In this document: piece after piece, positions 27,237 to 43,563 of the stretch
Layout of the letters: each line of letters starts with the position of its first letter
Position numbering within the stretch: position 1 is the first letter of the stretch
NCBI GenBank assembly: GCA_028702675.1
Contig: JAQVOJ010000001.1
Location: 62,080-118,401 of the forward strand
From: Bacteroidales bacterium
GTDB lineage: Bacteria > Bacteroidota > Bacteroidia > Bacteroidales > ML635J-15
Direction of reading: 5' to 3'
Length of the DNA stretch: 56,322 nucleotides
Made by a program: the position numbers and the translations under genes
The notes under the pieces: generated by a model
The model's input: the letters and a program-made list of their open reading frames with translations, nothing else
Databases searched by the model: none
What the model was told of the DNA's origin: nothing

Positions 27237-29375
27237 CTATTCTGTTACAATAAGCTTTTTAGTAATTTTATCTTTATTGCTTGTAGATAAACTTACAAAA
27301 TAAATTCCGGCAGTAAGCTTTCCTTTTAAAACATTAGATATTGGAACTAAGTGTCGTCCTTTGTTTAAATCTATCGACTTTTCTGCAATCTTTTTACCTG
27401 TCATATCTGATAATGTAATACTTACAGATTCCTTTTCGTCAAGATAAAACCCAAGGTTTGTATTTCCGTCAGAAGGATTAGGATATAATTGAACATCCGC
27501 AAAAACATGATAATTATCGATATTAGTTACATCCGATGTATATTCTATAGTCCAACCAGATGCATTATCATTATTATCAGAGAAAAACCATATTACTACC
27601 ACACTATCCTGAACAACAATGGGTTCATTCGGCACAGTATTTTGATTAAAATCTCCTATCAAATCTCCATACATCTCCCCTTTATACACTTTAACAAAAT
27701 CCATATTTCCGGCAAGTTCAAATTCAGTAAAATTAACTGTAATGTTTCCGGCATTATTGGGTTTTATAAAATATGAACAACTCAAAGTATTAGTATAATT
27801 ACAAGGTCCACTACCATCATTTATCTCTCCTTCGGCATCGAGAAACATCATATTTGATTGACAATTTTTAGTAGTATAATAAGCTTGCCATCCTTGTCCA
27901 ACATCAGACCCATCAGTAATAAATTGAATAGTAATAGGTCCATTATCACCTGATATACCAACATTTAAATATGGAGAATTGTTAGAGTCGTAAGAATCAA
28001 TAAGAGGATTATCGGTTCCATTTCCATCATAAATATTCAGAACATCGCCTTCACCTAAATCAAATGCACTAAAATTAAGTATTACAATTCTAGCACAAAG
28101 AGGATCAATTGTATATGTGCAATTTTTATTATTTTCATAGTTCGTATTCCCACTACCATCTTCTAAAGTCCCTTCGGTGTTTGTTAATAGTAAATCGCCG
28201 CTACAATTAGGAGGATAATTTTCGCGAGGATAAATATTTATAATAGCCTCTTGACCATAAATAAAATTATTTTCATCACCACTAGGAGTTGCAGTTGAAT
28301 TAAGATTATCCAAAGTATAGAATCCATTTCCTGAACCTCCCCATCCCCAATTCATATGAAACTTGTCATCATCTTGGTATCCATCGCAATTCCATGCATG
28401 TCCGGCACCGCTTGAAGGTCTTCCGGAATACACCATAGGTCTTCCTAAATCAATCTGATTACGAAGTAAAGTTTTCCATGCTGTTTCGGAGTAATTCGAT
28501 TTTTTAACATAATTAACGCTATTATCATATTTAAAATAATCTCTTAGGGCATCTTCAATTAGGAAAGTTTGTGATCCTGAACCATCAGGACCCCATTTCA
28601 TAGAAACTGCTACTCCTGCATGAAAATTAATTTTAGCAAGGTCTTCGTTTACTTGAGATGATGCAGAATTAGGCATAGCATACCAATCGTATGTTTGTTG
28701 AGCAAAATTTACTGTAATATTTCCATAACCCCCATTTACAAATGATATATGAGTTTTTGAACCTTCGCCACTTGCCGGATAATTATAATATTTCATTGCC
28801 TGTACCATAGCTGTGGCTACACAACCTACATACACATGCCCATGATCTCCGTCTTCATCTTCGGGACAAAGTGCATTATAAGGCCAATCTTGATTCCATT
28901 TAACATATAATAATGGTCCTACAGAGCTTTTTTGTTTAAAATTTTTGGTGGGATTAAAAGTTAATAATGCAATCCATTCTTGCTCAATTTCTTCTGTAGC
29001 ATCAATTTTGGCACTTTGCACAGAACTTATTGCAGCTGTATAGTAATCCATAAACCACTGCTGACCTGGAGACATATTACCTTCATTCCAAACCCCTTCG
29101 AACGAGTATGCCAAAATTGGAGTAACGGCACTTTCGGCACTTACAACAACAAAGCCTTCTTGATTGTTAACATTAAATATATAATATTGCATATATTCTT
29201 CGGGTTCTACAGCAAGAGTAAGATTAATATCTTCCCACGATTTTTCTGCTATTGAGTTAAAACCTTGATAATAGTATGCTTTTGCAACTTTAGCTGCATC
29301 TTTAATTGTAACTAAACCGGCAAATGAAGAGCTAACTACAAAAACAATAATTAGTAAAGAAATAATTTTTTTCAT
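27237..29375 (-). CDS. Secreted C10 (streptopain-like) cysteine protease with CUB domains and T9SS tail
   Basis: Exported by a signal peptide (about 1-19) and probably secreted through T9SS. A Spi-like propeptide (about 20-130) contains FNVNNQEGFVVVSAE, typical for C10 proteases. The catalytic domain has Cys185 in YVGCVATAMVQAM and His326 in GAGHAWNCDGY, followed by MNWGWGG. Two CUB-like modules follow (near 392-505 and 508-620), each with Cys pairs and an acidic turn (IYDGNGTD, VYKGEMYGD). The C-terminus is a type A sorting domain: QLYPNPSDG, SDMTGKKI, LTAGIYFVSL. Broad-specificity extracellular protease, zymogen-activated by analogy with SpeB. Confidence 0.9.
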   Translation of the reverse strand: MKKIISLLIIVFVVSSSFAGLVTIKDAAKVAKAYYYQGFNSIAEKSWEDINLTLAVEPEEYMQYYIFNVNNQEGFVVVSAESAVTPILAYSFEGVWNEGNMSPGQQWFMDYYTAAISSVQSAKIDATEEIEQEWIALLTFNPTKNFKQKSSVGPLLYVKWNQDWPYNALCPEDEDGDHGHVYVGCVATAMVQAMKYYNYPASGEGSKTHISFVNGGYGNITVNFAQQTYDWYAMPNSASSQVNEDLAKINFHAGVAVSMKWGPDGSGSQTFLIEDALRDYFKYDNSVNYVKKSNYSETAWKTLLRNQIDLGRPMVYSGRPSSGAGHAWNCDGYQDDDKFHMNWGWGGSGNGFYTLDNLNSTATPSGDENNFIYGQEAIINIYPRENYPPNCSGDLLLTNTEGTLEDGSGNTNYENNKNCTYTIDPLCARIVILNFSAFDLGEGDVLNIYDGNGTDNPLIDSYDSNNSPYLNVGISGDNGPITIQFITDGSDVGQGWQAYYTTKNCQSNMMFLDAEGEINDGSGPCNYTNTLSCSYFIKPNNAGNITVNFTEFELAGNMDFVKVYKGEMYGDLIGDFNQNTVPNEPIVVQDSVVVIWFFSDNNDNASGWTIEYTSDVTNIDNYHVFADVQLYPNPSDGNTNLGFYLDEKESVSITLSDMTGKKIAEKSIDLNKGRHLVPISNVLKGKLTAGIYFVSLSTSNKDKITKKLIVTE

Positions 29376-31353: not shown

Positions 31354-34300
31354 CTATATTTTTTTCTTTAAATCTCTAAGAGTCATTTCTTTACCGGTAT
31401 CACGAAGTCTTCGGGCTGTTGCTGTAAAATATTTATGCTTTTGAATAAATCTATATTGCATTCTATTCCATTGCTCAATAGTATTGATTTTTCCTCTCTC
31501 GAAAAGTTCTCTGAATAGGTTTTGTGAAACAGGAGTAAAGTCCGGTCTCCCTAAATAATCGAGATCAGCATCACAAATTATCATTTCGAGATGATTTTTG
31601 GGTTTTGGTGGCATCATGGTTGCTAATATCAAAGACTTAACAATTGCAATTTGTTCTTTTGTATATTTAAATAATGGTAATGTATCTTCAGCCATTTTTG
31701 CCCCTATTACTTCGTTATTGTCGTAGCTAACCATAAAACCTGCATCGTGAAAAATTGCAGCTGTTTTGAGTAATAAAAGTTCTTCTTCGCTAACTTTTTC
31801 TTCTCGTCCAATCATTTCAACTTTATAATAAACATTCATTGTATGTTTTAAATTATGATAATATAGATTCTTGGGTAATCCTTTATCAAGTTTTTCGAAC
31901 ATATGCTCTTCTAAGTCATTGATTCTAATAATTTGAAGTTTTGTGTTAAAGTCTTTGTTGGGCTTAATTCCAGACGAGAATTCCGATAAGTTTTGCTTAA
32001 TTTTTTTAACAAGATACATTACTAAATCTCCCTTATATTTTACTTGGGTTTTATCTCGTTGTTCACAATCAAAAAATTCTTTTACATAAGTGTATGTAGT
32101 TTCTGAAATATTCACTTTGCCAACCACACCATGACTTTCCATCCTGTTAGCAACATTTACTGTATCGCCCCATATATCATATTCTAGCTTATGCGAGCCC
32201 ACAACTCCGGCAACTACATAACCGGTATGTATTCCAACTCTCATTTTAAAGTCATAATTTGTTTCTTTATTAAGTTCATTCAATTTATCTAACATTTCAA
32301 GTGCAGCTAAAACAACCTCAACAGGATTAGTTCTATCTTTGTCGGGCATACCACCTGCACACATATAGGCATCACCTATGGTCTTAATCTTCTCGATATT
32401 ATATTTACCAATAATCTTATCGAAAGAAGTAAAAAGTCGATCTAGATACTTTACTAACTCTTCAGGATTAGTATCTTCCGCTATTTTTGTAAACCCTTGA
32501 ATATCTGCAAATAAAACCGTTACTAAATCATACCTTCTTGATTTTGCTTTACCTGTTTCTTGAATTTCTTGTGCAGTTTTCATCGGTAATAATTTTCGTA
32601 CCAGCTTTTCGGTTTGTTCTTTTTGTCGTACCAACTCATTTGTACGTTCTGCAACTATTAATTCTAATTTATTTTTTTCTGTGGCGTGTCTTATCTCGTT
32701 CAATTTTATAATTAACCAAAACAATGAAATCAAAATTGCAATATATAATACAATAGCCCACCATGTATAGTATATTGGAGGCTTTATTGTAAAATGAATA
32801 ATTGCTTCATTAGATATTGTACCATACTTATCTTTGGCTCTAACTTTAAAAGTATATTGCCCTGAAGATAAATTTGTAAAATCTTTAAAACTTTCTTCTG
32901 ACCATGAGGTCCATACATTTCTAAAACCTTCAAGTATTGTCTGATATTCAACATCGTTATGACTTGAATAAAACAATGCAGTATAATTAATTCTTAAACT
33001 ATTATTTGAAAAATTGAAAACCAAAACATCATCATTTTCAACAATAGATTTATCAAAACTCAAAACATCACTTTCAACAAGCTCTATACTTTTTATTAAT
33101 GCAGGAGAATTTTCGGTTTTCACTAGGCTTTGTCGTTCTTTATATCTTACTATTCCGTCAAAACCACCAAACCAAATAATATTATTAACATCGTGATAAA
33201 TACATTCAATATTATGGTCAATCAATTTTGGTATTGAAATATTTTGCAAAGAAAAAACATTGTTTTCATCTAAATAAAAATAACCGATCTTACTATTACT
33301 ATCAAAACTATTACTACAAAACCATAATCGTTTATTTTTATCCTCCACCAATGGATAATAACTATTGGGATGTAAAACATCTTCACTAAATCTAGTGTCA
33401 AATTTAAATTCTTCGTTATTAAAACTATAAATACCTTTACCTGTTGAAAAAAGTATTCCGAAACTTGTTTTATAAACATCTGCCCACTCATATTCTTCGG
33501 GCAAACCAAAACCCGAATTGTATTGAACAATTTCAGGATTTAAAATATCGTCATTATTAAACTCTAATCTAAAAAAACCATCGTTATTAGAACCAAGCCA
33601 AATAATATTTGCAGCTTCATGTACTATAGTTCTAACATCATAATCTAATCCGTTAATATACCCAATTTGTTTTAATATATTGTTTTCATTTTTTAAAACT
33701 AATAAACCGTTTCGTCCAGTTGCATATACTATACTATCATTAAACTCAGATTGATGTAATTGTCGAAAATACCCTTGGATAATTAAATTTGCATTTTGAC
33801 CATCAAGTATTTTAAAAATTCCTGAAGTAGCAGCTACATAAAGTTCATTGTTAATTAGCTGTAAGTGTTGTGCTTCACCAATAGATTGAGAAAGTTTAAC
33901 ATATTTTTTATCATCGGAAAATCCATTAATATCATAATCATAGTTTAAGTCATTAGAGCTATAATAAACTCCTTGACTAGTTCCAAAAAACAATTTATTT
34001 TTATACCGAATAATGCTAGAAATAACTCCATACAAACCTAAATTATCATCTATAAAACTATATGGCGACTCGACATCAATCTGGGAAATTCCATTATATG
34101 TTGTAAGCCAAATTTTTGAATTATTATCAAGAAATATATCAGTAATATGATTGTCGAGAAGAAGATTTCGTTTATTTAAAGAAAACATGTAATTCCCTAT
34201 ACTATCGATGCAAACTAATCCCCCGAAAACTGTTCCAATTATTATATTCCCGTTTTTAAGAGCAAGACTCTTAGAGTATCCGTTAGCTGAAATAAAATAA

Positions 34301-35031
34301 TCAATTTGAGAATTAAAATAATTAATTTGACCATCTTTCTGTTTATAAAAACCTGCTTCGTTTTCAGTTTTTATAACTATATTTTGATTATGATCAGAAA
34401 AAACATCGATAATATTCTTACCAACAAAATAATGATTGTAATTTACTGAATTAATTTCATCGTTATTAAGAATATATAATCCAAGTTCATTAATAGTAAT
34501 ATATACTTCATCTTTAAGATAAAAGGCGTTTAGTTTTCTTTCATTAAAGTATAGTAATTTTACCTTATTATCTTGTAGTTTTAAGATATAATTATCGGCA
34601 ACAAACAACACATCATTTTCACGAACGATTACCTTATTTATCTGATTTGGCACTATATTGCTCGGAATTTTAAAGTCCTCGAGTTTTAATATACCATTTT
34701 CGAGTATAAGTTTAGAAATTCTATTGTAGCCACCTACATAAATTATATTATTGTTACCGTGTACCAGTATTGGTCGTCCTTTATATTTAACAAATCTCCA
34801 CTCCGAATTATCGAACATCATAATACCGTTCAGATTCCCAAAATACATATATCCTCTTTCATCTTGAGTAATACTATAATTTTGACTTTCTTGGCGATAT
34901 TCTCTTGGTGAAAAATTAACAACATTAGGCAAACCTATCTCTTCTACTTGAGACATAGAGTTAGTAAACAGGAATAATAAACCCGTAAGAAACAGTAATT
35001 TTGTGAGTGTTTTGTATATACAGTCAAACAT
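31354..35031 (-). CDS. Reg_prop/Y_Y_Y sensor fused to class III adenylate cyclase and HD domain
   Basis: A 1225-residue signalling protein. Order: signal peptide 1-28; a large periplasmic propeller of Reg_prop type (about 40-660); a Y_Y_Y-like beta domain (about 660-750); one TM helix (about 755-776); a coiled linker (780-825); a class III cyclase domain (about 830-1010); and a C-terminal HD domain (about 1050-1215). The cyclase has both metal aspartates (D843 in FADIQG, D887 in TIGDAYM), the adenine-selecting pair K883 and D952 (YDIWGD), and transition-state N959 and R963, so it should make cAMP. The HD domain has H1063, H1095-D1096 and D1154/D1156 (CDADLDYLGR), so metal binding and phosphohydrolase activity are plausible. 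The sensor half is like Bacteroidota hybrid two-component systems but the kinase is replaced. The neighbours do not reveal the ligand. Confidence 0.88.
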   Translation of the reverse strand: MFDCIYKTLTKLLFLTGLLFLFTNSMSQVEEIGLPNVVNFSPREYRQESQNYSITQDERGYMYFGNLNGIMMFDNSEWRFVKYKGRPILVHGNNNIIYVGGYNRISKLILENGILKLEDFKIPSNIVPNQINKVIVRENDVLFVADNYILKLQDNKVKLLYFNERKLNAFYLKDEVYITINELGLYILNNDEINSVNYNHYFVGKNIIDVFSDHNQNIVIKTENEAGFYKQKDGQINYFNSQIDYFISANGYSKSLALKNGNIIIGTVFGGLVCIDSIGNYMFSLNKRNLLLDNHITDIFLDNNSKIWLTTYNGISQIDVESPYSFIDDNLGLYGVISSIIRYKNKLFFGTSQGVYYSSNDLNYDYDINGFSDDKKYVKLSQSIGEAQHLQLINNELYVAATSGIFKILDGQNANLIIQGYFRQLHQSEFNDSIVYATGRNGLLVLKNENNILKQIGYINGLDYDVRTIVHEAANIIWLGSNNDGFFRLEFNNDDILNPEIVQYNSGFGLPEEYEWADVYKTSFGILFSTGKGIYSFNNEEFKFDTRFSEDVLHPNSYYPLVEDKNKRLWFCSNSFDSNSKIGYFYLDENNVFSLQNISIPKLIDHNIECIYHDVNNIIWFGGFDGIVRYKERQSLVKTENSPALIKSIELVESDVLSFDKSIVENDDVLVFNFSNNSLRINYTALFYSSHNDVEYQTILEGFRNVWTSWSEESFKDFTNLSSGQYTFKVRAKDKYGTISNEAIIHFTIKPPIYYTWWAIVLYIAILISLFWLIIKLNEIRHATEKNKLELIVAERTNELVRQKEQTEKLVRKLLPMKTAQEIQETGKAKSRRYDLVTVLFADIQGFTKIAEDTNPEELVKYLDRLFTSFDKIIGKYNIEKIKTIGDAYMCAGGMPDKDRTNPVEVVLAALEMLDKLNELNKETNYDFKMRVGIHTGYVVAGVVGSHKLEYDIWGDTVNVANRMESHGVVGKVNISETTYTYVKEFFDCEQRDKTQVKYKGDLVMYLVKKIKQNLSEFSSGIKPNKDFNTKLQIIRINDLEEHMFEKLDKGLPKNLYYHNLKHTMNVYYKVEMIGREEKVSEEELLLLKTAAIFHDAGFMVSYDNNEVIGAKMAEDTLPLFKYTKEQIAIVKSLILATMMPPKPKNHLEMIICDADLDYLGRPDFTPVSQNLFRELFERGKINTIEQWNRMQYRFIQKHKYFTATARRLRDTGKEMTLRDLKKKI

Positions 35032-42333: not shown

Positions 42334-43563
42334 ATGAAGTCGATAAATAAACGCAAAATAATAAACGATCCGGTATATGGTTTTATAAATATACCATACG
42401 AATTATTATTTGATATTATCGAACATCCATATTTTCAAAGATTGCGACGAATAAAACAATTAGGATTAACTTTTTTAGTTTATCCTGGAGCTTCGCATAC
42501 AAGATTTCAACATGCTTTGGGCACAATGCACTTAATGACTCTTGCAATAGACATATTAAAACAAAAAGGTACAATCATAACCGACAAAGAAGCAGAAGCC
42601 GCATGTGCTGCAATATTATTGCACGATATAGGACATGGACCATTTAGTCATGCTTTAGAAAATAGCATTATTCCACACTGTTCTCACGAACAATTATCAA
42701 AACTTATTATGCACTCTCTTAATAATGAAATGGGAGGTAAACTTGATCTTGCAATAGAGTTATTTGAAGGGAATTATCAAAAAAAATTCTTACACCAACT
42801 TATAACCAGCCAATTAGATGTTGATAGGCTCGATTATTTGCGTCGCGATTCATTTTTTAGTGGAGTATCAGAAGGGGTAATTGGCTCCGACCGAATAATA
42901 AAAATGCTTGAAGTTGTAGATGATGAGTTAGTTATTGAGTCCAAAGGAATTTACAGCATAGAAAAATTTCTGATAGCAAGACGTTTAATGTATTGGCAAG
43001 TATATTTACACAAAACAGTTCTTGCCTCGGAATTGATGTTGGAAAAAGTATTAAAACGAGCTAGAGAATTAAGTCTTATGGGTATTAATTTGTTTGCAAG
43101 TCCTGCACTTAAATATTACTTACAAAACAATACTTTTGAAGATATAAGCAGAATGCTCAATAATTTTGTTGAATTAGATGATTACGATATTTTATCAGCA
43201 CTTAAAGAATGGCAAAAATCTGATGATATAGCTCTAAAAACATTAGCAGATGGCATAGTTAATCGAAATATTTATAAAATAATTATTGATAAAAACACAA
43301 ATCATTATCATCAAATATCAAGAATCAAGGAGTTAATATTGTCTCATTATAAAATTTCGGAAGATTTAATTGATTATTTTATGTTTGAAGGAGAAATTTG
43401 TAATAATGCCTACAATATAAAAGATGATAAAATAAATATATATAAAAACGGAATAAAAGAGGATATAATTTTAGCATCAGATATGCTTAACATAGATGTT
43501 TTAGGAAAGACAGTAAAAAAACATTATTTATGTTATCCCAAATATATACATAAGGAATTATAA
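42334..43563 (+). CDS. HD-domain phosphohydrolase
   Basis: A 409-residue cytosolic HD-superfamily protein. Metal-binding signature: [12 protein letters not shown] with His60, [15 protein letters not shown] with His97-Asp98, and [13 protein letters not shown] for the distal Asp. This is the dGTPase-like/COG1078 group that usually precedes lpxD in Bacteroidota. The substrate is unproved; a nucleotide triphosphate is likely. It begins a rightward run with lpxD, lpxC-fabZ and lpxA, 11 bp before lpxD. Confidence 0.88.

Follow-up and report, generated by a model that had tools for sequence, protein, structure and literature searches.

The 56,322-nucleotide stretch of Bacteroidales DNA analysed here (the window) carries at 31354-35031, on the minus strand, one unbroken ORF with an ATG start. 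It encodes a protein with the following features:

31354..35031, minus strand: whole gene, sensor, transmembrane (TM) helix, class III adenylate cyclase and HD hydrolase, 1225 aa; full length is kept in same-family genomes
34951..35031, minus strand: signal-peptide-like N-terminus, residues 1-27 (sequence MFDCIYKTLTKLLFLTGLLFLFTNSMS, assigned from the letters)
32767..34950, minus strand: predicted periplasmic Reg_prop beta-propeller sensor with terminal Y_Y_Y domain, residues 28-755 (Pfam; PDB 3v9f)
32701..32757, minus strand: single TM helix, residues 759-777 (hydropathy 2.62, the sole segment above threshold)
32542..32700, minus strand: helical signalling linker from TM to cyclase, residues 778-830 (helices of the AlphaFold model)
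32005..32541, minus strand: class III adenylate cyclase domain, residues 831-1009 (Pfam, catalytic residues, Foldseek)
31357..31914, minus strand: HD domain, predicted cyclic nucleotide phosphodiesterase, residues 1040-1225 (Pfam HD; AlphaFold; Foldseek)
31843..31860, minus strand: YHNLKH motif, residues 1058-1063, with H1059 and the metal ligand H1063
31744..31749, minus strand: HD metal motif H1095-D1096
31570..31572, minus strand: metal ligand D1154 of the third motif (invariant in the HD alignment A1; 170/170 fusions)

The Pfam matches Reg_prop (residues 291-313, 1.7e-10), Y_Y_Y (688-750, 4e-11), Guanylate_cyc (831-1009, 1.1e-60) and HD (1061-1156, 3e-8) follow one another along the chain, and together with the single hydrophobic segment they bear out the layout proposed in an initial annotation, a Reg_prop/Y_Y_Y sensor joined across one TM to a class III cyclase and then an HD domain. 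That annotation had also called the cyclase adenylate-specific and the HD metal motif intact, naming D843, K883, D887, D952, N959, R963 and H1095/D1096; each residue lies exactly where it had been placed, and both calls hold. Nearly every same-family genome searched has the same full architecture (about 1220-1300 residues) in an intact frame, with a cyclase-HD half ~60-67% identical, which rules out both chance and an assembly chimera. The cyclase-HD half was matched in 62 of 80 related genomes.

The sensor is of a familiar type, residues 466-755 matching the Bacteroides-type hybrid two-component sensor (HTCS) of PDB 3v9f (2e-17). The likeness extends to the single TM, whereas HTCS output is through histidine kinase, receiver and AraC domains and that of the present protein is cyclase-HD; no histidine kinase, receiver or HTH domain was found by Pfam in the 1225-residue chain, which therefore does not belong with the HTCS. 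The sensor is fast-evolving, at 26-38% identity as against 49-73% in the catalytic domains.

All six adenylate-type residues are present in the cyclase domain, so that one chain holds the metal Asp pair (D843, D887), the Lys/Asp adenine pair (K883, D952) and the Asn/Arg transition-state pair (N959, R963), as in cyclases of the homodimeric type. A PDB search matched mammalian and mycobacterial adenylate cyclases, and an AlphaFold model of residues 780-1225 (pLDDT 90) has solved adenylyl and guanylyl cyclases as its best structural matches (Foldseek to adenylyl cyclases 2.6e-19). No second Guanylate_cyc protein was found in the 3.09 Mb, 98.9%-complete genome.

In the HD domain the H...HD...D ligands of the superfamily are intact (H1063, H1095, D1096, D1154). 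They are kept in 155 of 168 fusions, nearly all of which also retain H1059, and the metal set is likewise present in nearly all standalone HDs of the family. H1059 stands at the position of the general acid of class I phosphodiesterases (PDEs), in which the YHNxxH...HD...D residues bind the first metal and supply that acid. All of these ligands are present here, and the HxxxH pair occurs also in the bacterial HDs 2pq7 and YedJ. The AlphaFold model of the domain (pLDDT 96) finds class I cNMP PDEs as its best Foldseek matches (PDE5, 2e-4, probability 1.0, TMq ~0.6), a top rank to be read against a target PDB rich in PDEs, followed by the bacterial HD hydrolases 2pq7 (7e-4) and YpgQ (2e-3) at TM-scores equal to those of the PDE. 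The sequence profile of the domain ranks 2pq7 (5e-9) and YedJ (1.5e-5) above PDE9 and PDE5 (0.02-0.05), and matches YpgQ as well. As the HxxxH pair is shared with bacterial HDs and the fold scores are close, modelled fold and motif permit a PDE, short of proof.

The Pfam family PDEase_I (PF00233) scores 12.7 bits on the HD domain, below its cut-off of 24.8, and covers the N-terminal motif only. We rejected a PDE assignment from this match alone, since unrelated HD proteins, both here and in other genomes, give the same weak signal. In the same-genome search a 409-aa protein with an HD-like motif, encoded in the window at 42334-43563 on the plus strand, has a better PDEase_I match (0.014) than the HD domain studied here, and the match is therefore unspecific.

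The close profile scores of 2pq7, YedJ and YpgQ, with TM-scores equal to those of the PDE, would also suit an HD domain that hydrolyses another substrate (a dNTP or NTP, as the pyrophosphohydrolase YpgQ does, or another nucleotide or phosphoester), in which case the protein would link cAMP synthesis to some other reaction. Standalone copies of the family adjoining ligA, the gene for NAD-dependent DNA ligase, in four genomes are in keeping with this. However, fusion, adjacency and co-occurrence with class III cyclases, like the reciprocal split of paralogs described below, argue for a substrate related to what the cyclase makes, and we regard hydrolysis of an unrelated compound as unlikely. Because the cyclase is of the adenine type, the compound shared with the HD domain should be cAMP.

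The protein is thus probably a bifunctional sensor adenylate cyclase/HD cAMP phosphodiesterase, for which we infer catalysis, cAMP as the HD substrate and control by the sensor. In such a protein the periplasmic propeller/Y_Y_Y sensor would signal through one TM helix and the helical linker to a homodimeric class III cyclase converting ATP to cAMP, and the C-terminal HD domain would act as a metal-dependent phosphodiesterase returning cAMP to AMP by ring opening. The sensor may then set the balance of synthesis and breakdown, comparable to Rel for (p)ppGpp and to the cyclase and PDE of plant CAPE.

Rel/RelA-SpoT proteins carry a (p)ppGpp synthetase and an HD hydrolase in one chain and have paralogs in which one activity is lost. 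The present family shares with them the pairing of synthetase and HD hydrolase on one chain and, as judged here from sequence, paralogs with one site lost, but differs in messenger and synthetase, in the reversed domain order and in having a periplasmic sensor. In CAPE, a combined adenylyl cyclase with phosphodiesterase, both activities have been shown, and in MpCAPE of Marchantia mutation of either H199 or H203, four residues apart, abolishes PDE activity (PMC5159850). The likeness is that one membrane protein combines a class III cyclase with an HD-superfamily PDE, predicted in the present case, bearing an HxxxH pair that is essential in CAPE. However, CAPE has its PDE, a true class I enzyme, at the N-terminus and two TMs between the domains, is confined to streptophytes and lacks a periplasmic propeller, whereas the HD domain here is C-terminal, about 200 aa long and outside PDEase_I. 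We found no published description of a bacterial cyclase-HD fusion in a search that covered few subscription journals, so an earlier description is possible.

The survey of the architecture across Bacteroidota that the initial annotation had proposed shows that the fusion is no isolated case. A scan of named genomes places it in Marinifilum, Carboxylicivirga, Alkalitalea and Taibaiella among others, essentially all Bacteroidota, and 168 non-identical fusions could be scored. Forms vary, from short fusions of about 465 aa to an 1865-aa kinase-GAF-cyclase-HD protein (locus L124). Cyclase and HD also occur as adjacent genes: at two loci (L037, L038) a Reg_prop-cyclase is followed directly by a separate HD gene, the coding frames overlapping by 1 bp, at L076 the HD is a separate neighbour gene of a Reg_prop-cyclase, and at L108 (313-4919) a standalone HD gene comes directly after tandem class III cyclases of 675 and 652 aa, TPR domains being confirmed in the second.

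The aligned HDs (A1) form a tight, distinct Bacteroidota family, present in 103 of 296 phylum genomes as cyclase-fused domains, as free proteins of ~200 aa, and fused to PycTM, to YitT membrane proteins or to TPRs. A class III cyclase is present in 40 of the 45 genomes with HD proteins of non-PycTM length, versus 114 of the remaining 252 (Fisher 2e-8, uncorrected for phylogeny). PycTM-size HD proteins show no association with class III cyclases, this class being assigned by protein size as a proxy and PycTM itself verified in the examined loci; they are present even in genomes with no class III cyclase at all. The HDs beside ligA (loci L041, L042, L043 and L045) and the PycTM-size HDs indicate that the wider family need not act on cAMP alone. 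At four further loci near cyclase genes (L109, L112, L113, L118) a family HD adjoins a YitT/DUF2179 membrane protein or is fused to it, L109 having in addition an HK-RR-RR/cyclase run.

The PycTM fusions (L048:2377-3585, L049:1639-2841 and loci L092, L097, L099 and L101-L106), found in many Bacteroidota, recall Pycsar, an anti-phage system in which a membrane effector (PycTM) is triggered by the cyclic pyrimidine from a cyclase (PycC) that is also of class III fold, and PycC profiles do match the present cyclase domain, weakly. For the protein studied here we consider such a role highly improbable, and for this genome we rejected it, since no PycTM (PF18967) was found there. The adenine-type K883 and D952 are kept, the neighbourhood common to relatives is nadB/hydF and not defence genes, and the sensor is extracytoplasmic. 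Furthermore, Q1192, kept in 164 of 170 cyclase-fused and 31 of 38 standalone HDs, is missing in all 11 PycTM HDs examined, hinting at a different ligand in the latter. The PycTM-fused copy at L049 has lost its HD motif.

We scored the 168 fusions for the two metal Asp, the Asn and the Arg of the cyclase and for the HHDD metal ligands of the HD domain. Both sites are intact in 112, the cyclase is damaged beside an intact HD in 43, the HD is dead beside an intact cyclase in 13, and both are dead in none (Fisher 0.04, uncorrected for phylogeny). On a tree built without the scored catalytic columns, a clade of 77 members, mostly short forms, keeps the HD ligands in 77/77 and has its cyclase residues repeatedly changed, while a clade of 15 keeps the cyclase in every member and has lost HD ligands in 13. 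The whole tree carries 19 changes of cyclase residues, of which well-supported branches force at least 16, and HD loss amounts to just one or two events; every member of the window's own family is bifunctional.

The two kinds of paralog meet within single genomes. An HD-intact short paralog is present in all eight surveyed genomes that have an HD-dead copy (G037, G073, G068, G462, G476, G442, G386, G430); in five of these it has lost the metal Asp D843, and in the other three it has K883H, D952E or DIKG for DIWG. At three loci (L143, L148, L180) HD-dead and HD-intact paralogs lie ~3 kb apart with divergent genes between them (porZ and ham1 at L148). By hand count, the short paralog is found in 9/9 genomes of the decaying clade, including one (G067) whose protein keeps its HD ligands yet is placed in that clade, as against 11/21 other genomes whose bifunctional copy falls outside the window's family (p = 0.013).

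That the HD site outlasts its fused cyclase, that the sister clade does the opposite and that both occur in one genome is most readily understood as the mark of two opposing enzymes of one cycle. The pattern resembles the RelA/SpoT split and argues for a catalytically active HD domain that counteracts the cyclase. The self-limiting logic proposed in the initial annotation gains support from this decay, from the adjacent-gene versions and from the co-occurrence, and the contrary case it had named, an HD domain acting only structurally, is disfavoured by metal ligands that persist throughout a clade repeatedly losing cyclase residues. In a rival explanation, the cyclase is regulated non-catalytically by an HD domain to which cAMP or some other nucleotide binds, the intact residues serving only to hold metal and ligand. 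Cyclase-fused HDs without metal ligands do persist (L069, L074, L253, L258), making a structural or regulatory role possible in that clade, and HD-PycTM proteins look sensor-effector-like. Such regulation is nevertheless improbable as a general account, given the full metal set in the other 155 fusions and its retention even beside a damaged cyclase. Returning to the bifunctional enzyme, we lean, somewhat less firmly than for the protein itself, towards a broader reading in which the HD family would be a new class of bacterial cyclic-mononucleotide PDE that in Bacteroidota is largely dedicated to class III cyclases, with the fusion as the cAMP counterpart of Rel, split into cyclase-only and hydrolase-only paralogs.

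The genome encodes no second strong member of the HD family, and our search for other PDEs found neither a PDEase_II protein nor a PDEase_I match reaching the cut-off; CpdA-type class III PDEs fell outside it, the metallophosphatase family being too broad. In a search for CRP-like receptors, also proposed initially, five CRP/FNR-like proteins were found, but on alignment with E. coli CRP none has its E72/R82/S83 cAMP contacts, and we put none of the five forward as the cAMP receptor.

The few papers found agree with the statement that cAMP signalling in this phylum is poorly described, although class III cyclases themselves are common there (154/296 genomes), with receptors and phosphodiesterases barely described. 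Since no other class III cyclase was found in the genome and this single protein also carries a candidate phosphodiesterase, it gives cAMP signalling in Bacteroidota a one-gene point of entry, by which a whole cycle may be addressable. The reciprocal decay supplies natural single-activity variants, making the idea of opposing activities testable.

The gene lies with nadB 277 bp downstream and the divergent hydF 90 bp upstream, and no sugar-utilisation genes are among the annotated neighbours. As this order is kept in several same-family genomes and not in all, we assign no functional operon partner. A C10 (streptopain-like) peptidase with a Spi propeptide, CUB domains and a T9SS sorting tail is encoded in the window at 27237-29375 on the minus strand, and in several related genomes it stays close to nadB and the cyclase gene.
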